A stretch of 64,000 nucleotides of DNA from an uncultured Desulfosoma sp. (GTDB taxonomy: Bacteria > Desulfobacterota > Syntrophobacteria > Syntrophobacterales > DSM-9756), in the NCBI GenBank assembly GCA_937960435.1, contig CALGPN010000046.1, positions 1-64,000 of the forward strand, written 5' to 3'. This document shows positions 3,523-39,279 of this stretch, one piece after another. Both the position numbers and the translations under genes were made by a program. The notes under the pieces were generated by a model. The model did not search any database. It was not told the origin of the DNA and saw only the letters and a program-made list of their open reading frames with translations. The stretch's first letter is position 1; each line of letters opens with the position of its first letter.

Positions 3523-5085
3523 CTACAGCCGAGGCTGCCAGCTTTCCATTTCGGTAAATTCGGAAACGGACGGTTCTTTGGTTTTCTGTTCCAGTTTGTT
3601 CAAAGCATTGACGAACGCTTTGGCGCTGGCCAGGACGATATCCGTTGCCACAGCGCGTCCTTGCACCATTTGGCCGTCTTCTTCCAAATGCACGTTGACT
3701 TCACCCAAAGCATCGGTTCCCGACGTGACGGCGTTGACTTCGTAGCGAAGCAGCCGTGGAAATCGATGAGTCATCTTGCAGATGGTTTTGAAGGCGGCAT
3801 CCACCGGTCCTTGGCCGAATCCGGCGTCTTGGCGCACCTGGCCGTCCATTTCCAATTGAACCGTGGCGTTGGGGACCGAGATGGATCCTGCGGAAACGTT
3901 CAAATAGAGGAGTTTGTAGCGTTGTGGAGGGGCGAGGATGGTCTCGTCCACGAGGTTTTCCAGGTCCGATTCGTAGATGTGTTCCTTGCGCTCCGCCAGC
4001 CCTTTGTAGGCTTCCCAGCATTGCCGCACGGCCTCCTCATCGACGGCGATGCCCATTTGCTCGAGTCGAGCGCGCAAGGCGTCCACGGACATGTCCTTGG
4101 CGACGGGTTCGGGCGCAACGTTCAGACCGAAATCCTTTGGGTCCATGATTTCATAGGGCGGTTGGGCGGATTCGTCGCCCAGTTGGGGGACGGTCGTTTC
4201 GTACACGAAAGCGTTGGCGCCCACCACGGGCTTATGCACCGCGAGGGTGATCCCTGTGAGGCGTTTGACGAGGCGGCATGTGGGGCCGATTTGAGTCGTG
4301 TCCACGCGGACTTCCGCTTGTAAACGGTCCCCGCGCGTCTTCAAAATCGCCACGACTTCTTCCAGCGGCGTATTTCCGGCCCGTTCCCCGATACCGTTGA
4401 TGGTCCCGTGGATTTGGGTCGCCCCGGCGGCGACCGCCGCCAAGGAATTGGCTGCAGCGAGCCCCAGGTCGTTGTGGCAATGGACACTCAGAATGACCCC
4501 GGAACCGTCCCCCAAGGCGGTCTTGACGGCACGGAAAACCATTTCGATTTCCAAGGGTGTGGCATAACCCACGGTGTCGGCAATGTTGATGACCGTGGCC
4601 CCGGCTTCGGCCACGGCCTTGGCCATGGCGACCACATCGTCTATGGAAGCCCGGAAGGCGTCCACAAGGGAAAATTCGACATCATCACATCGTTGCCTGG
4701 CCAGACGGACGGCTTTTTGCGCCAGATCCAGTGTCGCCGGAAAATCCCTTTTGAGGTAGTGACGCCGATAGAACGGCGACACGGGCGCAAAGGTATGCAG
4801 ACGAGGTCGGGAGTACCCCTCCAGGGCGCGCATGGCCACGTCGAAATCCATGGGGTTGGTGGCGCGAGCCAAAGCCGCGAGGACCGGCCCGGAAACCGTT
4901 TGGGCGATTTTGCGGACGGCCTCGAACTGCGCCTCGGAAGCCGCGGGGAAGCCGGCTTCGACCACATCCACGCCAAGACGCGCCAATTGAACGGCCAGGC
5001 GGACCTTTTCCGGGATGGTCAGCATGATTCCGGGCGATTTTTCTCCGTCGCGCAACGTAGTGTCAAAAAGAAGAATGGCGGGCAT
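3523..5085 (-). CDS. LeuA-family acyltransferase (2-isopropylmalate synthase-like), divergent paralogue
   Basis: This 520-aa protein has the LeuA layout: an N-terminal HMGL-like TIM barrel (TTLRDGE at ~9-15, EAGFP, DTVGY, SVHCHNDLGLA with metal-binding His), then the GIGERAGN loop, linker subdomains and a C-terminal LeuA allosteric domain with GQGPVDAAFK. Family members catalyse Claisen condensation of acetyl-CoA with a 2-oxo acid. Two deviations stand out. The RDGEQ motif reads RDGEK. The block that in LeuA reads HxSGIHQDG reads VYETTVPQLGDE, so its conserved His residues are gone. The substrate may therefore differ from 2-oxoisovalerate. No other leucine genes are nearby. A clear AAGGAGG precedes the ATG. 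The gene runs leftward, divergent from speD. Confidence 0.8.
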   Translation of the reverse strand: MPAILLFDTTLRDGEKSPGIMLTIPEKVRLAVQLARLGVDVVEAGFPAASEAQFEAVRKIAQTVSGPVLAALARATNPMDFDVAMRALEGYSRPRLHTFAPVSPFYRRHYLKRDFPATLDLAQKAVRLARQRCDDVEFSLVDAFRASIDDVVAMAKAVAEAGATVINIADTVGYATPLEIEMVFRAVKTALGDGSGVILSVHCHNDLGLAAANSLAAVAAGATQIHGTINGIGERAGNTPLEEVVAILKTRGDRLQAEVRVDTTQIGPTCRLVKRLTGITLAVHKPVVGANAFVYETTVPQLGDESAQPPYEIMDPKDFGLNVAPEPVAKDMSVDALRARLEQMGIAVDEEAVRQCWEAYKGLAERKEHIYESDLENLVDETILAPPQRYKLLYLNVSAGSISVPNATVQLEMDGQVRQDAGFGQGPVDAAFKTICKMTHRFPRLLRYEVNAVTSGTDALGEVNVHLEEDGQMVQGRAVATDIVLASAKAFVNALNKLEQKTKEPSVSEFTEMESWQPRL

Positions 5086-6818: not shown

Positions 6819-7199
6819 ATGCCCATTTACGAATACCTGTGTCTGCGATGCGGAAAGAAAAGCGAAGTGATCACCTTCCGCGTATCCGAAGAGGTCCATG
6901 CCCGATGTCGACATTGTGATGCCGCCGATCTCAAGCGCATTCCATCCAGGGTCCGGGTGCGTTTGTCCGAAGAAACGCGGCTGGAACGCCTGGCGGACCC
7001 GTCCCGGTTCGGCGCCCTGGATGAAAACGATCCCAAGAGCATGGCCAAGTTCATGAAGGCCATGACCCATGAGATGGGCGACGATTTCGACGAGGACGTC
7101 GACGCCCTGATGGAGGAGGCCATGGAAGAGGAAGCTTCCGCCAAGGGGGCGTCCCCTGAGGAATCGGCCGGCGGCGACGCCGATGAGGAGAGCCTCTAG
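6819..7199 (+). CDS. FmdB-family zinc-ribbon protein
   Basis: The product has 126 aa. The N-terminus MPIYEYLCLRCGKKSEVI...CRHCDAADLKRIPS is the FmdB/CxxC zinc-ribbon regulatory-protein domain, with two CxxC pairs (C9/C12 and about C32/C35) expected to bind one zinc. The rest is an acidic, helical tail ending in EESAGGDADEES. FmdB was first linked to formamidase/amidase regulation in Methylophilus, but most members have no proven role. An AGGAGG lies just upstream. The next gene starts eight bases after its stop, suggesting co-transcription with the RluA-type enzyme. Confidence 0.85.
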   Translation: MPIYEYLCLRCGKKSEVITFRVSEEVHARCRHCDAADLKRIPSRVRVRLSEETRLERLADPSRFGALDENDPKSMAKFMKAMTHEMGDDFDEDVDALMEEAMEEEASAKGASPEESAGGDADEESL

Positions 7200-7206
7200 A
7201 GCCGCC

Positions 7207-8124
7207 ATGCCCCCATCCGGAACCCCCACCTTCTGGAAGACACGAGTCCCTTCCCACCAGGACGGGTGGCGTCTTTGCGAACTCATCCGATGGGAATGCT
7301 TTCTGGAAATCGAGGAGGCGCGGGATTTGGTGGACTTCGGTTCGGTGCACGTGGCTGGCAGAGTGGTCCGCGACGGGGATCGATTCGTGCGGGCCGGGGA
7401 GGAAATCCGCATTTATTGGCCGTGGCCGGGAGTCCGCCGGTTTTACGAGTGGGATCCCGCGCGCATCCTGTTTCGCGATCCCTGGATCTTGGCCTATGAC
7501 AAGGAAGCCGGCATCCCCACCCAGCCCATGCCCTCCGACGCTTACAACAATGTGTTCGAGGCGGCCAAGCGGTTCCTGGCCGCAGAAGGGGCCGCAGATC
7601 CCTATGTGGGACTCCATCACCGACTCGACCGGGAGACCAGCGGTGTTCTCGTCATGAGCCTGTCGCGTCAAGCCAACAAGCCGTTGGGGCGTGCCTTTCA
7701 AGAGCGCCGGGTGAAGAAACTCTATCTGGCGTGGGTTCGCGGCGCGCCCGACTGGGACCGCAAAGTGATCCAAAAAGACATCGGGCGTCAGGCGGGCCGG
7801 TATGAAGCGTGGGAGGATCGTGCGGGGAAGAGGGCCGAAACGGTTGTGACGACGGTTCTTCGATGCCCCGACCGAAGCCTTGTGCATGCCGTCCCGACAA
7901 CGGGACGGACGCATCAGATTCGGCTCCATCTCGCCCACGAGGGCTTTCCCGTTCTCGGGGACCGCCTTTACGGCGACCCCGAAACGGCACGGGCGGCGCC
8001 TCGGCTTCTCTTGCACGCCTATCGGCTGGAATTCCCGCACCCCATTACCGGCGTGACCATCAAGGTGTGTGCGCCTCTTCCCCGAGACTGGCCTCCGGGG
8101 CCTGAGCCAGCCATTCCAGGCTGA
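7207..8124 (+). CDS. RluA-family pseudouridine synthase
   Basis: This 305-aa enzyme isomerises uridine in rRNA or tRNA. The catalytic Asp is in HHRLDRETSG (around residue 140). Other family blocks are LVMSLS, KLYLAWVRG, TGRTHQIRLHLAH and PVLGDRLYGD. An N-terminal S4-like region (WRLCELIRWECF...VDFGSVHVAGRVV) is present. The exact target base cannot be read from sequence. The start is taken at ATG 7207, after the FmdB stop at 7199; an in-frame start at 7183 inside the previous gene is less likely. The last 65 bp overlap the 3' end of the oppositely oriented dynamin-like gene. Confidence 0.88.
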   Translation: MPPSGTPTFWKTRVPSHQDGWRLCELIRWECFLEIEEARDLVDFGSVHVAGRVVRDGDRFVRAGEEIRIYWPWPGVRRFYEWDPARILFRDPWILAYDKEAGIPTQPMPSDAYNNVFEAAKRFLAAEGAADPYVGLHHRLDRETSGVLVMSLSRQANKPLGRAFQERRVKKLYLAWVRGAPDWDRKVIQKDIGRQAGRYEAWEDRAGKRAETVVTTVLRCPDRSLVHAVPTTGRTHQIRLHLAHEGFPVLGDRLYGDPETARAAPRLLLHAYRLEFPHPITGVTIKVCAPLPRDWPPGPEPAIPG

Positions 8125-10348
8125 GGGCTCGTCGGAGCTCCTCGATCTCCCCCAAAAGATTTTCCGCCAAAGCGGCGGTTTCCTCCAGAAGGGCCGCGGC
8201 CCGGTTGCGTTTGTCCTCCTCCATTTTGCCCTGTTGCAAAAGATGGCGAAAATCCATGTGCGCCATGCGGGCTCTGGCTTGGAAGTCCTCCAGAAGATGG
8301 GCCAAGGCCGCATCCAGCAGCTTGTGGAGGTACTGGTAGCGGAAATTCTGCCGATAATCCCGAAAAGCGTACACCAACTCCGCGCGAGCTTCCGCTTTGA
8401 CGGTTTCCACGGCTTCCAAAAAAGAGCCGCTCTGTTCGTCGGCGTCCTTTGTCAGGCGCTTTTTCCCCAGGCGGTCTTTGACGGTGTTCAGGAACCGGTT
8501 GAGGCGTCCGAGGCCGAATTTCATGAGCAGCAGCCCTCGCCCCACGGCGTTTTCGTCCACAAAGCCGCTGAAGGTTGGTGGAGTGATGTTTTTCCATTCC
8601 GCCCAGGGTTGCTGGGGGGACAAACCCGGTTCTCGCACCGCGACGCCCAGAGCCTGCAATTCCCGGTGGTATTCCTCCAGGGCGCTTTGAAACAACGACC
8701 AGAAAGCCTGAGACGACTCCCGGATGCGCCTCTTGAGAAACGACTCCTGGTCTTTGGCGAACCGAATGGTTTCCACATTGACCCGGTCCACCAGGAAGAC
8801 CGAAAGAGATCGGCGAAATTCCATGTAAAAGGCGTGGAGTTGGCGGATCACCTTGCGCGGATCGCTCAGATCTTTCGCAAAGGCGGAGTCCACGGGGTAG
8901 TGGTCCACGAGGCGCAAGGTCTCCTGCACCACAGGGCCGGTGGACAGGTCGAAGAACGTGGCGATGGCGTTGTCCAAATCGTTTTTCAAGCTTTCCCGCA
9001 AACCGCCGATGGCATTTTCCAAGGTGCTCAGGGTGCCGATGAGTTCTTCCTGTCTCCTTTGAAGGTGCCTGGCGGATTGCTCCAAATGATGGAGATCTTT
9101 TCCGAGGAGCTGCTTTTTCGTCCGGCACGTTTCCCCAAGGGTTTCGGCGACCACGGCCAACCGACCCAAGCCGGTGCTGAACAACACGCGACTGCGCTGC
9201 GTTCCGACGCGCTCGGCCAACTCCTCCTTGAAATCATTGAATCCCGGGGCATGGACCAACCGATGGGCCGCTTCCTCGCGCCACATGCTTAGGCGCAGGG
9301 CTTCCCGTGAAGACGGCTGAGGATCCAGCGCCTCCAGAAGATGGTACAAGCTGGAAAAAGCGTAGACCTGCGGGTTGGGGACCGTCCAGCCCAGCTCTTT
9401 TCGGAATCGTTCCACGGAAGCTTGGATGTCGTCGAGCCCGTGGTGCGTGTCCAGGTCCACGTTCAAGACAAAAAGGGTCTGGGGAGTCATGCGCAGGGTT
9501 TTGATGAGATCCAGGAGTTTGAGGTCCGCCTCTCGAAGTCCCGTGCGGCTGCTCACCACATAGACGATGATGTGGCTTTTCATGAGGTACTGCTGGAGCA
9601 AAGCGAAGTGCAGGGGGTTCGGCGAATCGCTGCCCTGACAGTCGGCGATTTCCACCGCATCGCCGATCCACGGTGCGGGGTAATGGATTTCCACATCCTT
9701 GAGATAAACGGCCGAGGATTCCACGCCCACGAAGTCTTGGTGCCGGGTTATGGTCTTTTCATCAAACGTCAGCTTTCGGGGTTGATCCTGCAACAAATCC
9801 CGCACCCCGGCGAAACCTTCCAGGTACGCATGAACCAGAAGGAAGTGAGCGTCCAGGGCGCTTCGACTGTGCTGCAATTGGGCCTGAACTGCCTTGAGTT
9901 TCCTGAGGAGGCTTTCTCGGTGGGTGCTTTTTCGCAGATCCCACGTTTTCGAAGCCACGGCGTCGCCTTCGGTGAGGGGGAGCATGGCGACGGCGCCGGA
10001 GAGCTCCTGATGGATTTCGTCCCAGCTTTTGAATTCAACCCAACCCCCTCGAACGGCATTGCACCGGATGCGCGTGATGAAAGACGTCACAATGCCGGCA
10101 CCCCTTTTGAGCAAGTCCCCACCCAGCAGGGCGTTGATCAAGGTGCTCTTTCCGGATTTGACGGAGCCCGCGACAGCGATTCGAACCAAAGGGTCCTGGA
10201 GGGCGTGTCGGACCAGATCCAGGTGATTCCGCCACAGCCCTGTCTGATGCCCGTCGGTGAGCTGCTCTGCCGCCAGGTTCTCCACGGCCCGGCGCAGGGT
10301 GAGTTCTCTTTGTTCAATCCCCTTCTTGAAAGCTTGGTAGTCGTTCAT
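8060..10348 (-). CDS. Dynamin-like GTPase (bacterial dynamin family)
   Basis: This 762-aa protein begins with a dynamin-type GTPase domain. The P-loop GSVKSGKST (61-69) follows RIAVA, a switch-like GIVTSFITRI follows, G3 reads ADCQGS near residue 234 in place of DxPG, and FVLNVDLD near 296 stands for G4. The C-terminal two-thirds is long and helical with coiled-coil stretches (KEELAERVGTQRS, SARHLQRRQEELIGTL, a final ALLEETAALAENLLGEIEELRR), as expected for the stalk of dynamin-related proteins. No transmembrane segment is evident. Bacterial relatives act in membrane remodelling or surveillance. It is a single gene with no paired dynamin beside it. Its 3' end overlaps that of the pseudouridine synthase gene by 65 bp. 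Confidence 0.85.
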   Translation of the reverse strand: MNDYQAFKKGIEQRELTLRRAVENLAAEQLTDGHQTGLWRNHLDLVRHALQDPLVRIAVAGSVKSGKSTLINALLGGDLLKRGAGIVTSFITRIRCNAVRGGWVEFKSWDEIHQELSGAVAMLPLTEGDAVASKTWDLRKSTHRESLLRKLKAVQAQLQHSRSALDAHFLLVHAYLEGFAGVRDLLQDQPRKLTFDEKTITRHQDFVGVESSAVYLKDVEIHYPAPWIGDAVEIADCQGSDSPNPLHFALLQQYLMKSHIIVYVVSSRTGLREADLKLLDLIKTLRMTPQTLFVLNVDLDTHHGLDDIQASVERFRKELGWTVPNPQVYAFSSLYHLLEALDPQPSSREALRLSMWREEAAHRLVHAPGFNDFKEELAERVGTQRSRVLFSTGLGRLAVVAETLGETCRTKKQLLGKDLHHLEQSARHLQRRQEELIGTLSTLENAIGGLRESLKNDLDNAIATFFDLSTGPVVQETLRLVDHYPVDSAFAKDLSDPRKVIRQLHAFYMEFRRSLSVFLVDRVNVETIRFAKDQESFLKRRIRESSQAFWSLFQSALEEYHRELQALGVAVREPGLSPQQPWAEWKNITPPTFSGFVDENAVGRGLLLMKFGLGRLNRFLNTVKDRLGKKRLTKDADEQSGSFLEAVETVKAEARAELVYAFRDYRQNFRYQYLHKLLDAALAHLLEDFQARARMAHMDFRHLLQQGKMEEDKRNRAAALLEETAALAENLLGEIEELRRALSLEWLAQAPEASLGEEAHTP

Positions 10349-25842: not shown

Positions 25843-26537
25843 AAAACTTAAGACATCGAATCCGAGGTATTTTCATAACGGGACTGCTCACCGTGGTCCC
25901 GCTTTCTTTTACGGTCTACGTGATCAGTATCGTTTTGAAAAATTCCGATAAGATTTTCAATATCTTACCAGAACCGTACAATCCCAAGCGTTTGATTCCC
26001 TTTCCCATCCCGGGACTGGGGATACTCGTGATGGTGTTCGTCGTGTTTCTCATCGGGCTGCTTGTCAGGAATTACGTGGGCAGCCGGATTGTGGAGTTTG
26101 GGGAAAGGATCGTTTACCAAATCCCGTTGGTTCGCCCCATCTATTCTGCCGTCAAGCAGCTTTTGGTGGCCATTTTCAGCCAAACGGGCCAGGGGTTCGA
26201 ACGGGTGGTCCTCATTGAATATCCCCGAAAGGGAATTTATGCTCTGGGTTTTGTCACGGGGGTTGCTCGAGGTGAGGTGCAGGAGGTGACGGAACAACGG
26301 GTGTTGAACGTGTTTTTGCCCACCACACCCAACCCTACCTCGGGTTTTTACCTGCTGGTACCCGATTCGGATATCATTCCCCTGAAAATTTCCGTGGAGG
26401 ATGCTTTCAAACTGATCATTTCAGGAGGGCTCGTGAGCTCTCAGGAGGGAATCGTGAATAACGGAGACGTGCGCTTCTTGACCCCACCAGGTGAGGCGCC
26501 CGCACGCATGACCGTCAACGAACGGAAGGGAGAATGA
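25830..26537 (+). CDS. DUF502 family membrane protein
   Basis: This 235-aa inner-membrane protein has two N-terminal transmembrane helices ([23 protein letters not shown] and [20 protein letters not shown]), then a soluble domain with [43 protein letters not shown] and [18 protein letters not shown]. These are DUF502 hallmarks. The function is unknown across bacteria; the Arabidopsis relatives (COV1-like) are membrane trafficking-linked. The start may be TTG 25830 or GTG 25836; both overlap panD. The stop overlaps the frame start of metK, so panC-panD-DUF502-metK may be one transcript. Confidence 0.88.
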
Positions 26538-26539
26538 CC

Positions 26540-29028
<2,489 letters not shown>

Positions 29029-29066
29029 CGAAGGTTCGGGCCTTTCTGAGGGGACGACGACTACCC

Positions 29067-30305
29067 ATGGCTTTAAGACACCGAAGGCCTTTTCCACGAC
29101 TTTATCGAGGGGCGGTGTGGGCTTCGGCCGCTGTCCTTGTGCTCGGAGGATGCGGCCTCTTAAAGCCTCGGCCGAAACCTCCGGAGCTTTTTATCAAACT
29201 TTCGCCCCGAGAGATTCCACCTATCGTGGACGATCTGCGGGGCGAAGGCTTGGAAAAAGCCCTGGAGCAATCCTTGGTGTACTTGGAGCGTGTGCGGGAT
29301 TTCCGTCCCGTGGTGCTGAACGAGCGCTCGGTCGATAAGGAGCTGGTCCTTTCGACGCTTCGCCATTTTCTCCAGCGGCTTCGAGAAAGACGATTGGATG
29401 CCCGGACCCTGGCCGAGGAATTCGACTGGTATGTGGCGAAGAACCCTTCGGGAGAAGGCTCGGGGATGCTCATCACGGGTTATTATGAACCGATTCTTTC
29501 GGCTCGCCGCCAGCCGGACGATCGGTACCGATATCCCATCTACGAACCGCCGCCGGACTTGATCCGTGTGGCCGTGGAACGGTTTCCCGCAGTTAAGCTC
29601 GATCCCGTCGGGGTGCGGTCCCTGATCGGACGCGTGGAAGGAAGGATCCTTGTGCCTTACTATTCCCGGCAAGAGATCGATTCCGGCGGGGCCCTTGTCG
29701 GCAAAGGCACCGTGATGGCCTGGCTTGACAATCCTTTCGACGTCTTCGTGTTGCATGTTCAGGGATCGGGGATCCTGCGGTTTGAAGACGGGGTGGAGCG
29801 GCGCGTCGGCTATGCGGCCTCGAACGGCCACCCTTACGTCAGTGTGGGAAAAATCCTCATCGAAGAGGGCGTGATCCCCAGGGAAGAGATGTCGCTGCAG
29901 AGCCTGCGCCGATATTTTGCGGCCCATCCGGAAAGAACGGCCGAGCTGTTGGAGCGAAACCCCAGTTACATTTTTTTCCGATGGGTGGAAGAAGGCCCGG
30001 TGGGCAGCTTGAACGTTCCCCTGACACCAGGGCGTTCCGCGGCTTTGGATCCGGAAGTTTACCCCAAAGCGCTGGTGGGCTTTCTGGAAGGGACTCTCCC
30101 CGATCCGCGCAGCGAAAGCTCAGCGGCCACCGCGCCCTTTTCCCGGTGGGTCGTTCATCAAGACGGCGGTGGAGCCATCCGCGGTCCGCATCGGTTGGAT
30201 CTTTTCTGCGGCACGGGGCCGGAAGCGGAGCTGACGGCGGGACGACTCAAATCCCCCGGACGCTTCTATGTCCTGCTGAAAAAGGACGCTAGGTCTCGTT
30301 TCTAG
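29067..30305 (+). CDS. mltA: Membrane-bound lytic murein transglycosylase A (MltA family lipoprotein)
   Basis: This 412-aa predicted outer-membrane lipoprotein has an N-terminal signal helix ending in the lipobox VLGGC (Cys29). The MltA core has TGYYEPILSARR, YPIYEPP, AWLDNPFDVFVLHVQGSGILRFEDG, VGYAASNGHPYVSVGK, and ERNPSYIFFRW. The C-terminal 3D-like domain HQDGGGAIRGPHRLDLFCGTG carries the catalytic Asp (in DLF). It cleaves peptidoglycan with 1,6-anhydromuramic acid formation. The ATG at 29067 is 38 bp after ahcY. Its stop overlaps that of the next, convergent gene by a few bases. Confidence 0.93.
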   Translation: MALRHRRPFPRLYRGAVWASAAVLVLGGCGLLKPRPKPPELFIKLSPREIPPIVDDLRGEGLEKALEQSLVYLERVRDFRPVVLNERSVDKELVLSTLRHFLQRLRERRLDARTLAEEFDWYVAKNPSGEGSGMLITGYYEPILSARRQPDDRYRYPIYEPPPDLIRVAVERFPAVKLDPVGVRSLIGRVEGRILVPYYSRQEIDSGGALVGKGTVMAWLDNPFDVFVLHVQGSGILRFEDGVERRVGYAASNGHPYVSVGKILIEEGVIPREEMSLQSLRRYFAAHPERTAELLERNPSYIFFRWVEEGPVGSLNVPLTPGRSAALDPEVYPKALVGFLEGTLPDPRSESSAATAPFSRWVVHQDGGGAIRGPHRLDLFCGTGPEAELTAGRLKSPGRFYVLLKKDARSRF

Positions 30306-30613
30306 GTTGGCGCGACGCCATGGTCTAGGAGTTTATGAAAAAGGAGAACCATTTCATCGAAACTGCGGCACATGGCTCGAGCCGCTTCCAAGGCCTCGTC
30401 GCCGGGAGAAGCCTCTTGAAAAAGATGCTGAAACAAGGCCTGCTGAGCGCCGCGAAACCGGTCCGTGGCCCTTTCGGATAAGGCGACAAGATGGCGAATC
30501 AAGAGCCGGGAATCGAGGTCTCGGGCCAAATCATCCAACTGGCGGCGTTTGGCGTCGTAATCTTTGGCCAAGGAGACGAGTTCTTCCAATGCGCTGGCGG
30601 CGATGTCGGTCAT
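30302..30613 (-). CDS. Hypothetical helical protein
   Basis: The product has 103 aa from MTDIAASALEELVSLAKDYD. It is fully helical and charged (KRRQLDDLARDLDSRLLIRHLVALSERATDRFRGAQQALFQHLFQEA), with no known domain. A possible upstream start at 30664 would add 17 residues. Its stop overlaps the end of mltA tail-to-tail at a CTAG. The coding call rests on composition and a GGAG at a fair distance only. Confidence 0.5.
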   Translation of the reverse strand: MTDIAASALEELVSLAKDYDAKRRQLDDLARDLDSRLLIRHLVALSERATDRFRGAQQALFQHLFQEASPGDEALEAARAMCRSFDEMVLLFHKLLDHGVAPT

Positions 30614-30815
30614 GGCATGGACTCCGAGGATCTCGACGCCCGGAAGAGAATTCGGCGGTGACAAGGGCGTCGGTGATGATTAAAAAGATTCTAAAGGCTT
30701 AAAAGATTCAAAATTCTGCGGCAAGCCCGATGAATCAAGGGCGCCTTGAAAATTCATAGTTTTCTGGTATGTCATTTGGCTAAATTCAACGACATCAGGG
30801 AGCCTGTGTGACGCA

Positions 30816-32366
30816 ATGAGAAAAACGGATGCCTTTCTCCTTTCCGACCACGGCTATCGTGGTCTGCCATACCTGTTTGAAGGCGGTGAACCTCACGCGG
30901 CATCGAAAGTTCTGAGAATCCAAGTGGCCGAGCACATCCGGATTCCCATCGGCGACGTGTCCCCGCAGGTGATGCGTAAGATACAGGATCGGCTGGTTTT
31001 TACCAATCCTGAATATGAACAGCGCCATTTGCGCGGAGAATGGATCGGGGGGATCCCGGCGCAAATCAATTGTATCCGCAAAATGGGCTCCGCTTACGTG
31101 CTGCCTCGAGGCTTTTTGGATCAGCTCCTGGAACTGTGTCGGAAGTTCCAGCAGCCGTACAAGATCATCGACAATCGACGGGTGTTGGACCCTGTAGCGA
31201 TGGAGTTCCATGGGCAGTTGAAAGAATATCAGCTCCAGGCGGCGGAAGAAATCCTGGAACGGGATGCGGCGACGCTTCTCGGCGGCTACAAAAGCGGCAA
31301 AACGGTCATCGCCCTTTACGTTATTGCCCAGCGCAAACAACCGGCGCTGGTGCTCATCCCCCGGATGGACCTCTTGGAAGGGTGGCTGACCAAGATCGTC
31401 AATTTCCTTCAGATTCCTCTGGAGGAAATCGGGTTGTTTGTTCAGGGGCTGCACAAGTTGGGAGAGAAAATTACGGTGGCCCACACCGCCGAGATGATGA
31501 AGGTGTGGAAAAAGGTCAAGGAAAGGGTGGGCTTTGTGATCCTGGATGAGTGTCAGCGAAGCCCGGCCAAGGTCTTGACCCAGCTCATTCCGAATTTCGA
31601 CAGCCGCTATCTACTGGGTCTATGCAACGCCACCCAACGTTACGACCAGCTTTCTCGGTTCATTTATCTCAATTTAGGAGATGTGGTCTACAGCATCAAT
31701 GAACAGGACGCTCGGGAAGGGCGTGGAATTATTCGAGCACACGTGGTGGCTCGGCCGACGAATTTCGATTATCCCTATCAAAGCCGAGACGACTACGGGC
31801 CCATGATGCAGGCTCTGATGACCGACGAAGAGCGCACGCGACTGATCGCCGAGGATGTCTCTGCGGAGGTTCGGGACGCCGACCGGCCTCTGGTAGTGGT
31901 TTCGGGGGGCGAGGTGCACAATGCAGTGTTGCAATCGGAATTGATTCGAAGAGGCATAAAAGTGCACATTCCGGAGTGCCGGTGGGACGAGGAGAGCGAA
32001 GAAGACGCCGAGGACGACACGGAGCCGAGGGCATGGGGATGCCGCTGTCTGGACGACATGCCGGAAGGACCGGGGGTGGTGCTGATGAGCGCGGAAGATC
32101 TGCTACGGTGCTATCGCTACCTGAACACGGGCGTGCTGTTCTTGGCCGTGCCGCTTTTCTTTAAGAAATCTGTCGTTCATGCCATCCGTGGGCTGCTCAT
32201 GGCCTCCTCGCTCGACGCAGGAAACGGCTCGGGGCCCTCCGGCAACGGTCGGCGCATCAAGATTTACGACTACGTGGACCAGAAAATCGGTCTTTTCGAA
32301 AACTATTTCCGGATGCGCAGTTACAATTACGGAGTCCATCCGGACGTTCTTCTCGGCAGCCATTGA
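30816..32366 (+). CDS. SF2 helicase-like ATPase, degenerate (XPB/UvsW-like layout)
   Basis: The product has 516 aa. The N-terminal ~125 residues (VAEHIRIPIGDVSPQVMRKIQDRLVFTNPEY...YVLPRGFLDQLLELC...YKIIDNRRV) match the accessory domain found before some phage and conflict-system SF2 helicases. Walker A is GGYKSGKTV (~155), Walker B reads LDECQ (~242-246), and motif III is LCNATQRYDQLSRFIY...GDVVYSI instead of LTATPxRxDG. The second RecA lobe ends with IKIYDYVDQKIGLFENYFRMRSYNYG. The motif VI region reads VVHAIRGLLMAS, so the usual QxxGRxxR arginines are missing. DNA translocation is doubtful; nucleotide binding is plausible. ATG 30816 has GGGAG 13 bp upstream. The next, unknown gene follows with no gap. 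Confidence 0.75.
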   Translation: MRKTDAFLLSDHGYRGLPYLFEGGEPHAASKVLRIQVAEHIRIPIGDVSPQVMRKIQDRLVFTNPEYEQRHLRGEWIGGIPAQINCIRKMGSAYVLPRGFLDQLLELCRKFQQPYKIIDNRRVLDPVAMEFHGQLKEYQLQAAEEILERDAATLLGGYKSGKTVIALYVIAQRKQPALVLIPRMDLLEGWLTKIVNFLQIPLEEIGLFVQGLHKLGEKITVAHTAEMMKVWKKVKERVGFVILDECQRSPAKVLTQLIPNFDSRYLLGLCNATQRYDQLSRFIYLNLGDVVYSINEQDAREGRGIIRAHVVARPTNFDYPYQSRDDYGPMMQALMTDEERTRLIAEDVSAEVRDADRPLVVVSGGEVHNAVLQSELIRRGIKVHIPECRWDEESEEDAEDDTEPRAWGCRCLDDMPEGPGVVLMSAEDLLRCYRYLNTGVLFLAVPLFFKKSVVHAIRGLLMASSLDAGNGSGPSGNGRRIKIYDYVDQKIGLFENYFRMRSYNYGVHPDVLLGSH

Positions 32367-32478
32367 ATCCAAGAGACAGCCTATTGAGATTTTTTCGCAT
32401 CTGGGCCGGGGCGCTCGATCCTTGCGATGGCGCTTCGGCCCCGGAAAACCGACGTGCGAGCGGATTCCCAAGGGATTG

Positions 32479-33324
32479 GTGAGGGAGCCTGGATTGCGCA
32501 AGTGTCCTTTTGTCGCCTTGGCCCATTTCCTCCGGGACGATCCTCGCGCGGTGACCTTGGGGGTTCGGCCGACGTTGGGGGATTACACGGCCGAAGAGCG
32601 CCGACTTCTCCGGCAGGCTCTGCGAGTTCTTTTCCCCACCGTGCGGTTCGCCGAGGTGTTGGAAGCGGGGGGATGTCGCTGTTTTCCGTCGGCAATGACT
32701 TATCGGTATCAGCGATGGCGGCCTTTGCAGTGGACCTTGGGCGCCTTCTTGGGCCTGCCCATGGTCCGGTCCCGAGTCTGTTACGGGCAGAAGGCCAAGC
32801 GAGAAATCCCTCAGTTGTTTCGGCTGCCTTTGCGCGTCCTGGGACCTCGGGTCGCCGGGGATCCCGTCTTCCTTGTGGATTCGTGGGCGGTGTGGGATGC
32901 CGTGGCCGCGGGATTCAACCCGGTGGTCGTCAGTGAATGGGTCAACTACCGATGGCGGCATGAAGTCTGGGTGGCGGGCGGCGCAGTGATGGCGTGGAGG
33001 AGTGTGCCGTGGGATGGCGTGGCCGATCGCGCAGAGGGGCCGTGGGTTCCGGGATACGCCAGCCGGGGAACGGCTGCGGAAATCTCCGAGCGCAGCCTCG
33101 ATGTGTGTCGCCGCGCCAACATTGACGAAGGGGTGTTGTTTTGGGGAGCTAAAGACGGCTCAGGGGCATTCTTCTTTGAAGGGATCAAACGTCCCCCGCT
33201 CAGGATGGAACACGCAACAGGCACCGGCGGAAGGTTTTCGCTGGCCTTTTCCGCTTTGATCGAGAGCCTTGAAAAAATCGAGAGTCCTTTCATCGCGGGA
33301 AGCTTTTGTCAGTCCGGATCTTGA
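32479..33324 (+). CDS. Hypothetical protein downstream of helicase-like gene
   Basis: The frame is open from inside the helicase gene; likely coding sequence begins around 32362-32479. No ATG is available early, so GTG 32479 (or TTG 32476/32422) is a guess. Residues include KCPFVALAHFLRDDPRAVTLGVRPTLGDYTAEERRLLRQALRVLFPTVRFAEVLEAGG, RYQRWRPLQWTLGAFLGLP, and FLVDSWAVWDAVAAGFNPVVVSEWVNYRWRHEVWVAGG. This is a soluble alpha/beta protein without a family I know; the VRP...G/FPSAMTYRYQR region might bind a nucleotide or sugar, but no motif proves it. It is probably co-expressed with the helicase-like gene. Confidence 0.55.
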   Translation: MREPGLRKCPFVALAHFLRDDPRAVTLGVRPTLGDYTAEERRLLRQALRVLFPTVRFAEVLEAGGCRCFPSAMTYRYQRWRPLQWTLGAFLGLPMVRSRVCYGQKAKREIPQLFRLPLRVLGPRVAGDPVFLVDSWAVWDAVAAGFNPVVVSEWVNYRWRHEVWVAGGAVMAWRSVPWDGVADRAEGPWVPGYASRGTAAEISERSLDVCRRANIDEGVLFWGAKDGSGAFFFEGIKRPPLRMEHATGTGGRFSLAFSALIESLEKIESPFIAGSFCQSGS

Positions 33325-33445: not shown

Positions 33446-33655
33446 ATGATGGACGAGTGGGAAAAAGATTACGAAAAATCCGCACAGATGGCCCAGCGCC
33501 ATTTTCGAAAGGATGTTGCCGGGTTTCGGGAACGAAGACGGCTGGAATTGGAAGATCTCTTGAAAATCGAACAGGCAAAGCCCGAGGATTTGAGAGACGA
33601 GGAAAAAATCCGATGGATCCTCGAGGAATTGCAAACCACCGGAGAACAATCGTGA
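33446..33655 (+). CDS. Small charged helical protein
   Basis: The product has 69 aa (MMDEWEKDYEKSAQMAQRHFRKDVAGF...LEDLLKIEQAKPEDLRDEEKIRWILEELQ) and is almost entirely helical and charged. GAAAGGAAAGCG gives a good ribosome-binding site; the second ATG at 33449 is an alternative. No domain is recognised. It is 121 bp before the M16 peptidase gene on the same strand. Confidence 0.6.
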   Translation: MMDEWEKDYEKSAQMAQRHFRKDVAGFRERRRLELEDLLKIEQAKPEDLRDEEKIRWILEELQTTGEQS

Positions 33656-33776
33656 AAGTCGCCCCGCCGCCCTTCGAAGCACGGGTCGCCCCGGCGGTTT
33701 CTTACCTCAAAGCCTTCGCAGGAAATCCGGCACAAAGAACCCGGTGTGCCCGACCGATCGCCATAGGTTGAACATC

Positions 33777-36524
33777 ATGCGCAACACCCATGGGCGCTTT
33801 CGGCGCCATTTCATGTTTTTTTACGGATTCTTCTGGATCGGTGTGACCCTTTTGGGTTCTCTGGTCGAGGCCGCCGAGTTTCCCGCGTCGGCATCCTTTG
33901 TCGAACGATACCTCCAATCCCAAGGAGCCGACACCTTCGTGATTCTCCGCAACGGTTTGACTGTCTTGATCCGGCCTCGAGAGGACACCGATGTCGTGGC
34001 CGCCAAGGTTTTTGTGCGGGCCGGGTCCATCTATGAAGAAGAGAAAATGGGCGCCGGCCTCTCCCACTACCTTGAGCATGTCGTTTCCGGGGGGACGACG
34101 AAATCCTTCACGGAACAGGAAGCGCGGGATCGGCTGGAAAAGCTTGGGGGGGCGACCAACGCCTACACCAGCCATGACCGTACGGTCTACTACATCACGA
34201 CCAGTGCCTCCCATTGGCGCGATGCTTTGGAGCTGCTTCTGTCCTACGTTACCGAATGCACCTTGGAGGATTCGGAAGTCGCTCGGGAAAAAGCGGTGAT
34301 CCAGCAGGAATTCAAGCTTGGCGAAAACGACCCCCAAAAGGAGCTCTGGAAGCTGTTCATGAAAACGGCCTACAGAGTCCATCCGGCTCGGCATCCGGTC
34401 ATTGGCTACGAAGACGTGTTCGTCCAGACCAGCCGAGAGGACCTTTTGCGCTACTATACCGAGCGCTATCAGCCGCAAAACATGGTGCTGGCCGTCGCCG
34501 GTCGCGTGGACCCCGAAGCGGTGATTGCCTTGGTGGGGCAAAAAACGCTCTCTGAAGTCCGAACAGGTGTGAAGGAGGCGTCCCTGCCTCAGGAGCCTCC
34601 GCAGACGGGACGGCGATGGGCGGAAAAGTCCTTGCCCATGGCCCGCATGGTGCAAGCCATGGTGGGTTTTCGTTCAGTTCCTCTCAGCCACGAAGACCTC
34701 TATGCCCTGGACGTCCTGGCCATCGTGCTGGGCGAGGGACGCACCAGCCGCCTCTACCAACGGCTTAAAGAACGGGATCAAAAGGTCCTCCAGATCGGCG
34801 CTTTCAATTGGACCCCATCCTATGTGGCGGGGCAATTCGTGGTGTCCATGACGCTTGCCCCCCAGCACTGGCCCCAGGTGCTCGACGCCCTAAGAGAGGA
34901 AATCCGCAAGGTTCAGGACAAAGGGGTGTCCGACGCGGAACTGGAAAAGGCCAAAAAGAAGGTGATCGCCTCCCACGTGTTCGGGAAGGAAACTACGGAG
35001 GAAATGGCGGCTTCTCTGGCTTCTTCCTATTTCGACACGGGGGATCCCTATTTTGAGGACTTTTATGCGAAAAACGTGCGGCGCGTGCGCAAAGCGGATG
35101 TCCAGAGGGCGGCCAAGCGGTACTTGGTGGAAGACACCATGACCGTGGCGGTGATCAAACCGCAGGAGGTTCCGGGGGCGGACAAAGCGGTCGAGAAGAG
35201 TCCGGTAAAGTCCGAGGCGCCAAGCGTTAGAAGGCAGGCGAAGCGTTCGGCGCTGGGCAACGGCCTGCGCGTGCTTCTAAAAGAAGATCGCCGGTTTCCT
35301 TTCGTCTCCTTGCAGCTCTACGGCATTGGGGGAGTGCTCCTCGAAAGCCCGGCCGAGGAAGGCTATGCGGCCATGACGGCCTCCTTGCTCACGGCCGGGA
35401 CAAAAACACGGAGCAAGCTGGAGATTGCGCAGGCGCTGGAGTCCGTCGGGGGCAGTATTGCCAGCGGCTCGCAGCACAATTCCTACTACGTGGCGGCGAA
35501 GGTGTTGAGCGAGGATCTGCCATTGGCCGTGGAAATCCTGTCGGATGTCGTGCTTCATCCCGTTTTCCCGCCCCACGAAGTGGAAAAGAAGAGGCAGGAG
35601 ACTCTGCTCGCCCTACAGAAGCAGGATGAGAATTGGCAGACGGAGCTTGTCCGGTTGTTCAAGAAAAACTTTTTCCGCACACACCCTTACCGCCATGACA
35701 TCCTCGGGAACGAGCAATCCATCCGAGCCGTCAGCAGGGAGATGATCCGGGATTTTTACGCCAAAATGGTCGTGCCGCAGCGGGCGGTTCTGGCGGTCTA
35801 CGGCGATTTTGATGCGGCGACGCTCATGCCGCTTCTGGAAAAGGCCTTCCTCCAGTGGCGCCCTTCCGGGTCTGCGGACATGCCTTCCGTGCAGGAGGAA
35901 GACGGACGAATCCAGGGGCGGCATGTCGTGGAGAAAAAAAACGACAAGACATCCATGGGCCTTTTTGTGGGCACGCCCGGTTTGGACCTCCACGATGCCC
36001 GAATGGCCGCACTTGATGTGCTGGATGCCGTGCTCTCCGGTATCGGCTATCCAGGGGGGCGACTCCACGCCGCTTTACGAGGCGGGGACAACAATTTGGT
36101 TTACGTCGTGCACGCTTTTCCCTTCAGCGGCTACCGGGCGGGCTATTTCGGCGTCATTACCCAGACGACGCAGAAAAATGCGCAGCGCGTGGAATCCCTC
36201 ATCCATGAACACCTGGACCGACTTATGAAAGAGCCCGTTGACGCCGAAGAGCTCCAGCGAGCCAAAGACATGGTGATCACCATGCACGTGCTGGAATTGG
36301 AAAGCCTGGAAGCCCAAGCGCGCAGCGCCGCCGTCAACGAGCTCCTCGGACTGGGCTACGATTATGCCGATCGCTACCCCGATCTGGTGCGGCGGGTGAC
36401 GGCCGAAGACGTGCAAAAGCTGGCGGAGGAGCTCTTTCAAGGGCGACTCGTGGTGCGAACTCTCCCGGAAAATCCGGTGGAAGTCCTTCCGACGGACACG
36501 CCGTCTCCGGCCCATATCCGCTAA
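33777..36524 (+). CDS. M16 family zinc peptidase, two-domain, exported
   Basis: This 915-aa protein has an N-terminal signal segment (HFMFFYGFFWIGVTLLGSLVEAAE). The first M16 unit has the inverted zinc motif HYLEH (in LSHYLEHVVSGGT, ~96-100) and the distal Glu in EKAVIQQEFKLGEND, so it looks catalytically complete. A second unit (LGNGLRVLLKEDRRFPFVSLQLYGIGG...) lacks HxxEH and is probably structural, as in insulinase-type clamshell enzymes. It acts in the periplasm, degrading peptides. The start is set at ATG 33777; a later ATG at about 33813 would still keep the signal. The gene downstream is convergent. Confidence 0.9.
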   Translation: MRNTHGRFRRHFMFFYGFFWIGVTLLGSLVEAAEFPASASFVERYLQSQGADTFVILRNGLTVLIRPREDTDVVAAKVFVRAGSIYEEEKMGAGLSHYLEHVVSGGTTKSFTEQEARDRLEKLGGATNAYTSHDRTVYYITTSASHWRDALELLLSYVTECTLEDSEVAREKAVIQQEFKLGENDPQKELWKLFMKTAYRVHPARHPVIGYEDVFVQTSREDLLRYYTERYQPQNMVLAVAGRVDPEAVIALVGQKTLSEVRTGVKEASLPQEPPQTGRRWAEKSLPMARMVQAMVGFRSVPLSHEDLYALDVLAIVLGEGRTSRLYQRLKERDQKVLQIGAFNWTPSYVAGQFVVSMTLAPQHWPQVLDALREEIRKVQDKGVSDAELEKAKKKVIASHVFGKETTEEMAASLASSYFDTGDPYFEDFYAKNVRRVRKADVQRAAKRYLVEDTMTVAVIKPQEVPGADKAVEKSPVKSEAPSVRRQAKRSALGNGLRVLLKEDRRFPFVSLQLYGIGGVLLESPAEEGYAAMTASLLTAGTKTRSKLEIAQALESVGGSIASGSQHNSYYVAAKVLSEDLPLAVEILSDVVLHPVFPPHEVEKKRQETLLALQKQDENWQTELVRLFKKNFFRTHPYRHDILGNEQSIRAVSREMIRDFYAKMVVPQRAVLAVYGDFDAATLMPLLEKAFLQWRPSGSADMPSVQEEDGRIQGRHVVEKKNDKTSMGLFVGTPGLDLHDARMAALDVLDAVLSGIGYPGGRLHAALRGGDNNLVYVVHAFPFSGYRAGYFGVITQTTQKNAQRVESLIHEHLDRLMKEPVDAEELQRAKDMVITMHVLELESLEAQARSAAVNELLGLGYDYADRYPDLVRRVTAEDVQKLAEELFQGRLVVRTLPENPVEVLPTDTPSPAHIR

Positions 36525-36550: not shown

Positions 36551-38299
36551 TCAAGCCCCGGGCGCAGCCAGACGCGCTCGGAGCCTCTCCGCGTTGTCTC
36601 GCGCAAAGTCCAGCGTCGGGTCCAATTCCAGAGCCATTTCGTAGAGACGAAGGGCTTCGTGCGCATGGCCCAGTTCGCGCAGGTTCGAGCCGATATTGGC
36701 GTAGTCGATGGCGGATCCCGGATCGATTTCGATGGCCTTTTCAAAAGCCTCGATGGCCTTCTCGTGCCTTTTGAGTTTGTAGAGGCAGAAGCCCTTGAGG
36801 TTGTAGATTTCTTTCAGGGTCGGGTTGAGTTTTTCCGCCTCTTGCAGGGCTTCCAAGGCCGCATCGTAGCGCCCCAAGTCTTTTCGGCATGAGCCGATGT
36901 GCACGTAAATGCTGGCGACTTCCCGAGGATCGGGGTTCTGGGTCAGGGATTTTTCAAAGAGTTCCAAAGCCTCCTCGTATCGTGCCATGCGCTCCAAACT
37001 GTGCGCCGCAAAGAAGGTGAGATCGAACCGGGGGCCGAAGAGATCCGTCAACCGCCTCAAGTGCTGGAGCGCCTCGGGCGGATCCAGGCTCCTCAGAACC
37101 GTCCGAGCCATATGTTGGGCAAAGTCCGTATTTCTTGTGTGATCCAGGAAGTGAGCTCCAGGAATGATGACATAGACGCTCGGGATCTGGAGTCCCTCAT
37201 GGGTCACATTCACCGCCAAAACATCCCAGCCGAGGTGGGACAAGGCCTGCACGGCCCGGTGAATTTCCACGCGCAGGTTGTCGTCGCTCAGATCGGGCAA
37301 GGCCTCGATGGGGACGGTCCGCTCACCTGTCATGAGATACCGGGCTTCGTGGAGTGAACCGTATTTGGGCAGCGTGGGCTTATAGGTTGTGCGGTTTTCA
37401 AAATCTCCTGCCAGTTGGGCCACTTCGGTCAAAGCGCGACAGAGGGACTTTTCCGGGCATGACGTGGTTCCCGCCGTAAAAACGATTTCACTTTTGTGCG
37501 GAAAGGTCTCGGGATCGTAAGCCAAAACGCCCACGGTGGGGATGCCGGTGTCTAAAGAAAAATCATGGGCAAAGAGGCGGATCCCGCACCGCCGGAATTT
37601 TCCGATGAGTTCCCTCGCCGCCTCATCTCGGACGCTTTCCAGATCGATGATCGGGGTGAGGCGCCGATCGTGGGAGATGACCGATCCCACGTGCCGTTCC
37701 ACGACCTCGCACAGGGCTTGCAACAGGGCTTCCTCCAGAGTGTTTCCTGCAGCGGGACCGTTGTATTCGTTGATGAGATAGAACCAATCGATGGGGATCC
37801 ACTCATCCCGGTCCTTTGTGAGGTTTCGGCCGGGAACCCACCGCATGGGGCACGTCTTCAAGAAGGTTTGTACCCGTTGCGTAGGCGTGTCGTCGTCATG
37901 CACGGATCTCAAGAGCACGTCCGCAGACGTGCACGGCCCGTCCAACTCCGCCATGCGGGCGGTCAAAAACCTTTGGGCATGAACAAAGGAAAAAAAACTG
38001 AACCGTTCCATGAGTTCCATCAGGGCGCTGGCTTCCGCCTGGGCCGGGGTGGCTCCTTTGCCCATCTGTTTTTGCGTGCCCGTCATGGCCGCGGCATCGG
38101 GGCCGCACAGGCTGATGTAGACAGGGATCCCCAAACGGCCTGTGTCGATGCGCAGCGTCTTGGCGAGAATGCGCATCTGAAGATTTTCCAGGCGTTTGCG
38201 AACCCACCGCACGGTGTCTTCGGGGGCTCGAGCCTTTTCCTGGTCATGGCGAAAGGTCTTGAAGCAATCGTGAAGGTTGATGCGGGCATCCAGACGCAT
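36551..38299 (-). CDS. YcaO-like protein with C-terminal TPR repeats
   Basis: The product has 582 aa. Residues ~1-390 form a YcaO domain: TGTQKQMGKGATPAQAEASALMELMERFSF, GNTLEEALLQALCEVVERHVG, and LCRALTEVAQL carry the ATP/Mg-binding Glu residues of the family. YcaO enzymes use ATP to activate peptide amides for cyclodehydration or thioamidation; E. coli YcaO affects RimO-dependent methylthiolation of ribosomal protein S12. The C-terminus has about four TPRs (YEEALELFEKSL, YDAALEALQEAEKLNPTLKEI, HEKAIEAFEKAIEIDPGSA, HEALRLYEMALELDPTL), which would bind a protein partner. No precursor peptide or TfuA gene is nearby. AAGGAGC sets the ATG at 38299. Confidence 0.88.
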   Translation of the reverse strand: MRLDARINLHDCFKTFRHDQEKARAPEDTVRWVRKRLENLQMRILAKTLRIDTGRLGIPVYISLCGPDAAAMTGTQKQMGKGATPAQAEASALMELMERFSFFSFVHAQRFLTARMAELDGPCTSADVLLRSVHDDDTPTQRVQTFLKTCPMRWVPGRNLTKDRDEWIPIDWFYLINEYNGPAAGNTLEEALLQALCEVVERHVGSVISHDRRLTPIIDLESVRDEAARELIGKFRRCGIRLFAHDFSLDTGIPTVGVLAYDPETFPHKSEIVFTAGTTSCPEKSLCRALTEVAQLAGDFENRTTYKPTLPKYGSLHEARYLMTGERTVPIEALPDLSDDNLRVEIHRAVQALSHLGWDVLAVNVTHEGLQIPSVYVIIPGAHFLDHTRNTDFAQHMARTVLRSLDPPEALQHLRRLTDLFGPRFDLTFFAAHSLERMARYEEALELFEKSLTQNPDPREVASIYVHIGSCRKDLGRYDAALEALQEAEKLNPTLKEIYNLKGFCLYKLKRHEKAIEAFEKAIEIDPGSAIDYANIGSNLRELGHAHEALRLYEMALELDPTLDFARDNAERLRARLAAPGA

Positions 38300-38379
38300 G
38301 GGACGCTCCTTTTTCGTTGTCGGCGTTCTGGTCGGCGGCCAATCCACGGGATCAAAGGCCGACGAACCTGAACCGACAT

Positions 38380-39279
38380 TCATGATGAAAGGCTCTGGGC
38401 GGTTTTGGCGTTGTGGGATTCCATGGAGGCGCGGATGGTCTCCAAGAGCTGCCGGGCGTGAATCCCGGACTGAAACGATCGAGGCAGGCCTTTGATGGAT
38501 TGGAGCTCTTCGAGGGTTTCGGGCATTTTTTGGGCGAGCCGAATCAGGGCTTCGTTGGGAAGGATGCGGAAAGGCGCTCGATCCAACCTCCTTGCCGCCT
38601 CGTCTCGAAACGCATAAAGGTCCTTCAGGACGGCTCTGGCTTTTCGGGACAAGCCTCGCGCGCCCTGGAGCCGCCGGTACCCGTCGGCGGGGAAGCGTTC
38701 TCGAGGAGGGGCCTGGTCACACACTTTCGCGAAGGCGCTTCGCGCCTGGTCCCACAGGCCTCGGTGCATCAATTCCTCGTGCAGCTGATCCCGTAAGGCA
38801 ATCAGATAGTGCGTGTCCAAGCGGGCATAGTGGAGCTGGGAGTCCTTCAGAGGACGTAAACCCCAATCGCAGCGCTGCCATTTCTTGTCCAGATGGACCT
38901 GAAACCGGGCCTCCAGGATGTGCGAAAGGCCCAAATGTTTTTCGCCCAAAATCTTGCACGCCACGGCGGTATCGAAAACATTGCGGAAAAAGAAGCCGAA
39001 ATCCCTCTTGAGGGATCCGATGTCGTTGGCCGCAGCGTGAAAAATCTTTTCCACCGAGGGGTCTTCAAAAAGGTTTGACAAACACTGCGGGTGGGCGATG
39101 CTTAAAGGGTCGATGATGTAATCGTCCTGATCCGTGGAGATCTGGATCAGGCACACGCGCTCGTAGTAGGCATAATAACCGTTGGATTCGGTGTCTACGG
39201 CGATTCGGGGGCACGAGAGCAATGTGTTCAAGCTCTTCTGCAGCGCATCATCCGATTCGATGAGGATGTAGGGACGCAT
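38380..39279 (-). CDS. rnd: Ribonuclease D-like 3'-5' exonuclease with HRDC domain
   Basis: The product has 299 aa. The DEDDy exonuclease core has IAVDTESNGYY (DxE), FHAAANDIGSLKRDFG, FDTAVACKILGEKHLGLSHIL, and YARLDTHYLIALRDQL (YxxxD). The C-terminal HRDC domain (LYAFRDEAARRLDRAPFRILPNEALIRLAQKMPETLEELQSIKGLP) binds nucleic acid. RNase D trims tRNA 3' ends. It is shorter than E. coli Rnd, having one HRDC. The start at ATG 39279 is chosen because the family N-terminus begins shortly before DALQKSL. It lies directly before (80 bp) the YcaO-TPR gene, likely in one transcript. Confidence 0.9.
   Translation of the reverse strand: MRPYILIESDDALQKSLNTLLSCPRIAVDTESNGYYAYYERVCLIQISTDQDDYIIDPLSIAHPQCLSNLFEDPSVEKIFHAAANDIGSLKRDFGFFFRNVFDTAVACKILGEKHLGLSHILEARFQVHLDKKWQRCDWGLRPLKDSQLHYARLDTHYLIALRDQLHEELMHRGLWDQARSAFAKVCDQAPPRERFPADGYRRLQGARGLSRKARAVLKDLYAFRDEAARRLDRAPFRILPNEALIRLAQKMPETLEELQSIKGLPRSFQSGIHARQLLETIRASMESHNAKTAQSLSS

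Follow-up and report, generated by a model that had tools for sequence, protein, structure and literature searches.

Sequence comparison gives good support to the view that G1, a protein encoded in the window (the whole 64,000-nucleotide stretch of DNA analysed here), is a pseudo-helicase: it descends from intact helicases, has lost motifs essential to them, and has been kept under selection. The presence of a strongly selected ATP pocket in almost every sequenced member of the class, in most of them together with a disabled neighbouring protein (G2), suggests that G1 has a core function and is not a decaying gene.

Motifs and fold of G1

The open reading frame of G1 (Table 1) carries the features that an earlier note on this DNA had read from it: Walker A (GGYKSGKT), Walker B (DECQ), NAT at motif III, HAIRGLLM at motif VI, and a YDYVD helicase tail. 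The losses extend beyond those described there. Motifs IV and V are also gone, and the residue before SGKT is a lysine in place of glycine. Thus, G1 has the Walker A and B motifs of an SF2 helicase and lacks the S/T-A-T of motif III, motif V, and the QxxGRxxR of motif VI. Pfam matched the first RecA half alone (ResIII, 8.3e-10), and no Helicase_C match was found in G1.

Table 1. Coordinates of G1, its segments and the neighbouring genes in the window
Feature	Position	Strand	Remark
metK	26534..27721	+	conserved upstream locus
ahcY	27658..29028	+	conserved upstream locus
mltA-like lytic transglycosylase gene	29064..30305 (start provisional)	+	next conserved gene upstream of G1
G1, pseudo-helicase, 516 aa, predicted XPB/UvsW-type SF2 fold	30816..32366	+	ORF, Pfam, AlphaFold model
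G1 N-terminal domain, residues 31-127, FTNPEYE...PRGF	30906..31196	+	conserved in G1 family; with RecA1, superposes in the model on the N-terminal half of T4 UvsW
G1 P-loop GGYKSGKT	31281..31304	+	K159 (K-3) and K162 invariant
G1 Walker B DECQ	31545..31556	+	D244 invariant; position 245 is E in 35 of 44 orthologues, D in 9
G1 motif III position	31623..31631	+	C-N-A replaces S-A-T
G1 motif IV position	31905..31910	+	Gly-Gly replaces Asp-Arg (SDR to SGG)
G1 motif V position	32100..32117	+	LLRCYR replaces IGEGFD
G1 motif VI position	32178..32201	+	HAIRGLLM replaces the QYLGRVLR of intact relatives; both arginine fingers lost
G1 C-terminal tail KIYDYVD...ENYFRMRSYNYG	32259..32333	+	hyperconserved
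G2, predicted pseudo-ATP-grasp protein, RimK/LysX-type fold	32479..33324 (start GTG 32479 or TTG 32494)	+
M16 peptidase gene	33744..36524	+	conserved downstream boundary in families f1 and f3, including loci without G2

The same motif losses were found in all 44 full-length G1 orthologues, which are 35-76% identical. The alanine of motif III (position 271) occurs in about one of the 44, and G432 of motif V and R459 of motif VI in none, whereas each is present in 27/27 intact relatives; R462 of motif VI persists in 10/44 orthologues and is likewise universal in the relatives. The motif IV arginine is gone or essentially gone in the 44 orthologues and present in 27/27 intact stand-alone relatives. 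The K-3 residue of the P-loop is lysine in 44/44 orthologues, compared with glycine in 27/27 relatives. Since every orthologue has the same losses and the outgroup helicases covering the region are intact save one, motif loss in G1 is more than chance.

The nucleotide-binding residues were retained: K162, G161, and D244 are invariant across the 44 orthologues, the Q-motif residue Q139 is invariant or nearly so down to 35% identity, and the Walker threonine T163 is found in 42/44. Mean column identity in the family is highest in the tail (0.67), which is thereby the best conserved part of the protein; RecA1 (0.59) and the N-terminal domain (0.58) follow, and the motif V-VI part of RecA2 is relaxed (0.34). 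Within the tail (IYDYVD...NYFRMRSYNYG), D485, Y486, D488, and R501 are common to the intact relatives, R501 occurring in 25/27 of them. N496, F498, R499, M500, S502, Y503, and G506 are fixed or nearly fixed in the G1 family, where R499 and R501 are both nearly invariant. Judged by the alignment, the G1 tail is an elaboration of the ancestral helicase tail. The most decayed G1 proteins are those of two members of family f6 (L043 and L044), which read GKK for GKT at Walker A and DDCN at Walker B and have no G2 nearby. Their tail is still intact despite the Walker decay, suggesting that the tail, and not ATP use, is the common denominator.

XPB/Rad25 and T4 UvsW are active enzymes with intact motifs, unlike G1. 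Their structures (PDB 6p4o, 2fwr, 1rif, 2oca) represent the nearest solved folds. The AlphaFold model of G1 (pLDDT 84) matches XPB at Z 23-24, and its residues 31-293 match T4 UvsW (1rif_A) at Z 21.8, with an rmsd of 3.2 A over 242 residues. The model therefore predicts an XPB/UvsW-type fold with an N-terminal domain and two RecA domains. Because the XPB alignments extend to residues 485-495, the fold is predicted to be kept in both RecA domains; their relative orientation in the model differs (high overall rmsd).

Distribution, selection and origin

A profile built from 34 rows detected a full-length G1 (at least 620 bits) in 44 of the 55 genomes of the window's class, and several further class genomes hold pieces of G1 at contig ends. 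Outside the class, the best match in the rest of the 297-genome phylum sample reached 397 bits. Nearly all related genomes have one orthologue each. Two conserved peptides were scanned over 84,980 species genomes and gave 38 loci, and the record titles place all of these in the same taxonomic group (Desulfacinum, Desulforhabdus, Desulfoferrobacter, Syntrophobacteraceae, Desulfarculales-labelled MAGs, BM002, and similar). The apparent absence of G1 from one genome (G003) was rejected: a contig ends there, about 130 bases away from G2. Five SF2 helicases in class genomes (L048, L049, L061, L063, and L064) were considered as G1 members and rejected as distant paralogues outside the clade.

In a quick tree of 85 sequences, the 44 orthologues lie together on one side of a branch whose SH-aLRT is 100 and whose stem measures 1.3 changes per site. 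Apart from L055, all outgroup helicases in which the motif region is covered have kept their motifs intact. Between close pairs, the dN/dS of G1 is 0.03-0.14.

The closest sequence relatives of G1 are stand-alone phage-type and TOTE helicases of Desulfobacterota, at 23-37% identity. The phrog_16-type stand-alone and TOTE helicases have the architecture of N-terminal domain and tail in common with G1; unlike G1, they have intact canonical motifs, are not restricted to one class, and in several cases occur in mobile-element contexts. Intact stand-alone relatives match the phage helicase family phrog_16 at 1e-65 to 1e-75, compared with 8e-12 for G1 itself. Several of those examined adjoin phage integrases or proteins with Toprim, primase zinc-ribbon, or NrS-1 polymerase domains. 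Among phages and plasmids, distant helicases alone were found, the best being that of a Desulfohalobium plasmid (31%). Given the phage-type intact relatives, several of them beside primases or integrases, G1 is probably a domesticated mobile-element helicase; the simplest account would be that it was captured from such an element.

A second helicase of this superfamily, which sits on a very long branch, has degenerated independently (L159:4178-5716, on G090:C78). It has lost motif V, reads FQAMGALMKAA at motif VI, and carries DQCE. It adjoins a Toprim/CHC2-type primase (L159:1065-3839), with integrase-like ORFs nearby (L159:5886-6494 and 7028-8197), a setting that resembles a mobile element.

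The locus and the neighbouring gene G2

The genes panC/panD, (DUF502), metK, ahcY, and mltA lie upstream of G1 with order and orientation kept in most members of f1 (the window's family), f3 (its sister family), and f5. G2 follows G1 on the downstream side, where f1 and f3 also have the M16 peptidase gene. Families f2 and f6 have other neighbours around G1, and most f2 genomes still keep G1 and G2 together. Three further ORFs were observed in this region of the window. One of 120 aa between mltA and G1 (30302-30664, minus strand) has no Pfam match and is conserved at 44-64% identity in ten loci. A small ORF of about 68 aa between G2 and the M16 gene (33447-33652, plus strand; MMDEWEKDYEKSAQMAQRHFRKD) is 69-72% identical in two Desulfacinum loci only. 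The third (36551-38383, minus strand) encodes a YcaO domain fused to TPR repeats and is 71% identical in Desulfacinum.

The earlier note had placed the next gene directly after G1 without a gap and assigned it to no known family; neither description holds. The mechanical ORF (32179-33324) does overlap G1, and its end is correct for G2. G2 homologues have the FVALAPF block as their first residues, which puts the gene start at GTG 32479 or TTG 32494, about 112-127 nt past the G1 stop. The structural model of G2 (pLDDT 89) has an ATP-grasp fold in common with the RimK, LysX, and ArgX ligases (PDB 5k2m, 3vpb, 7qys, 5zk6) over about 240 residues, with Z about 19 for LysX/ArgX and 17 for RimK. The Pfam RimK profile matches 6 of 24 G2 members; the window's G2 matched no Pfam family.

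Most genomes have a second, ordinary G2 paralogue elsewhere (G000:C37:882-1571 in the window's genome), as do other Desulfobacterota. These paralogues retain the FPFIAK lysine, the glycine loop, QEYLPIDRDLRV, YWR, N..GG, and LEAN. By contrast with them and with RimK, LysX, and ArgX, most G2 proteins have lost the catalytic lysine, the phosphate-binding glycine loop, the YWR arginine, N..GG, and LEAN; these are partly kept in f5 and intact in paralogues such as L136:798-1625. The alignment suggests that the f5 members are an intermediate stage in the loss of catalytic residues. With a dN/dS of 0.16-0.22, G2 is also under selection, weaker than that on G1. An intact RimK-type paralogue in another locus (L148:4877-5662, minus strand) overlaps an ORF (4128-4889, minus strand) that reads VVLTGAGISAESGVPTFRG. 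By eye this is a Sir2-type deacylase signature, and the two may form a ligase/deacylase pair.

G2 lies directly downstream of G1 on the same strand in 31 of the 44 loci, and one further case (G017) is on a second contig. Neither of the two observations that the earlier note had named as refuting its reading was made: the pairing is conserved, though not obligate, and motif VI is lost in 44/44 members of the clade. G2 has moved away from G1 in five genomes (G008, G020, G024, G034, and G037), and nothing above paralogue level was found in seven others, all G1-positive (G018, G021, G023, G025, G035, G041, and G043). Thus, G1 does not need G2. No G2 remnants were found by tblastn (E 0.001) downstream of G1 at the G2-less loci, and in four of these the M16 gene is directly next to G1. 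Outside the class, G2-like paralogues and G1-like helicases of the same genomes are at different places.

Possible roles of G1

The reading we rank first, at about an even chance of being right, is that G1 is a domesticated pseudo-helicase that binds ATP, hydrolyses it slowly or not at all, and works as a clamp or adaptor on nucleic acid, with G2 as an accessory. Sequence and comparison show that G1 descends from XPB/UvsW-type SF2 helicases, several intact members of which occur in the replication modules of mobile elements. Motifs III, IV, V, and VI disappeared along a single stem branch, on which the N-terminal domain, the C-terminal tail, and the ATP-binding RecA1 half were retained; strong purifying selection has since maintained G1 in one class. 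The fold and the conserved N-terminal domain point to nucleic-acid binding. As both arginine fingers are lost and the K-3 glycine has become lysine, ATP hydrolysis is probably slow or absent, which suggests an ATP-gated clamp or adaptor; G1 would bind ATP and nucleic acid without coupling hydrolysis to movement. According to a structure survey, most classes of P-loop NTPases consistently have Gly or some other small residue at K-3; flexibility of the backbone at this position was proposed to be needed in the transition state, and the oncogenicity of Ras Gly13 was linked to this (PMC9599529). The invariant tail NYFRMRSYNYG may be a site that recruits a partner or holds the nucleic acid. G2 would be a degenerate ATP-grasp protein without ligase activity that most likely serves G1 as an accessory regulator or cofactor and was lost in some lineages. 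We infer both the clamp mechanism and a physical pairing of G1 with G2. Three findings stand against the clamp. E245 is kept as E in more orthologues (35/44) than pure ATP binding would require, the two f6 genomes lack the Walker threonine (GKK), so that G1 may do its work without ATP in some lineages, and G2 is missing or elsewhere in 12-13 G1-bearing genomes.

The earlier note had suggested that the two proteins may form a pseudo-helicase complex, which their adjacency in the 31 loci makes a candidate. G1 and G2 could be the two subunits of one machine, the disabled ATP-binding folds regulating one another or acting on a common target, a possibility to which we give a modest chance. The genes are adjacent and co-oriented across the class, the pair persists amid other neighbours (f2 loci L080, L083, and L090), and both proteins have lost catalytic residues. 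Against this, G2 is relocated or absent in about a dozen genomes, and the distance-matrix test is not specific for G1 and G2 (0.68), because G2 and mltA score higher (0.78).

G1 might instead be a nucleotide-independent scaffold like yeast Utp25, the helicase fold serving as a platform and ATP binding being vestigial. The disappearance of every RecA2 motif, the strong conservation of the tail, and the f6 proteins with GKK and DDCN all argue in this direction. The preservation of K162, G161, D244, Q139, and T163 across the 44 orthologues is difficult to reconcile with a vestigial site and makes the scaffold unlikely.

It is rather improbable that G1 is an active ATPase whose lost fingers have been replaced, whether by K159, by R501 in the tail, or by an arginine that a different protein or subunit supplies. 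K159 is fixed in the same family that lost the fingers (44/44 against 0/27), R499 and R501 hardly vary, and most orthologues retain the Walker B glutamate. Moreover, Lys, Arg, or K+ can stimulate P-loop NTPases in different families (PMC6310460). Replacement of the small K-3 residue, however, is tied to impaired hydrolysis (PMC9599529), and motif V has been lost too. R501 as a gained finger was rejected: it was already conserved in the intact relatives, and is thus ancestral.

A part in a TOTE-related defence or conflict system is highly improbable. The earlier note had likened the N-terminal domain to those of conflict-system helicases, and this holds in so far as the TOTE relatives are similar there; the closest intact relatives, however, are stand-alone phage-type helicases. 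The AEP-TOTE primase domain is present in more distant relatives (L058 and L062), with which the N-terminal domain is common; no match to it (PF22548) was found in G1, and the weak matches to two PADLOC models are confined to the helicase half. G1 is single-copy and near-universal, its orthologues form one clade, and its place among fixed housekeeping genes lends no support to a conflict role today. There is next to no chance of local decay or a sequencing artefact, and comparison refutes both, for no support for either was found, no homologue of the clade has an intact motif VI, the same state recurs in 44 genomes with frames open in nearly all, and dN/dS is well below 1.

Precedents and significance

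Pseudohelicases are already known as a kind. The Deinococcus radiodurans PriA is a bacterial pseudohelicase that has lost Walker A and B (PMC4504706). It is a phylum-wide bacterial helicase derivative that, like G1, has lost helicase motifs, and it keeps a DNA- and partner-binding role (PMC4504706). PriA has, however, kept its ancestral job of replisome reloading, whereas G1 keeps Walker A and B and has lost the RecA2 motifs; G1 is not PriA, and it has no ortholog with a known job. The Utp25/Def pseudohelicase also uses the SF2 fold as a platform, with dispensable helicase motifs (PMC9539457); it is a eukaryotic DEAD-box derivative involved in ribosome assembly, whereas G1 is of XPB/UvsW type and has kept its P-loop. 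For G2, TTLL12, a TTL-type ATP-grasp relative, may be a precedent, as it is reported not to carry out the reaction expected of its family (PMC3520985); TTLL12 is eukaryotic and its context is unrelated to that of G2. The literature searched on TOTE or Syntrophobacter helicases yielded nothing on the G1 protein. In the part of the literature covered, we found no description of the G1 family, its class-wide range, the K-3 lysine, or the disabled ATP-grasp neighbour.

In sum, pseudohelicases are rarely recognised in bacteria; the literature search gave one, the Deinococcus PriA, in which the opposite half was lost. For G1, the whole series can be read, from intact phage-type relatives through one stem of change to 44 descendants under strong selection. 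This makes the use of an immobile helicase fold and the role of the invariant K-3 lysine testable, and in G2 the stepwise loss of catalytic residues can be traced. As a tentative and rather speculative proposal, a mobile-element motor rebuilt once may have become a class-wide core ATP switch, in which finger loss and the P-loop lysine would yield a nucleic-acid clamp, ATP-locked and partnered by another disabled ATP-binding fold, in a class-specific process. G1 is a near-universal protein in one class that is important for syntrophy and sulfate reduction.
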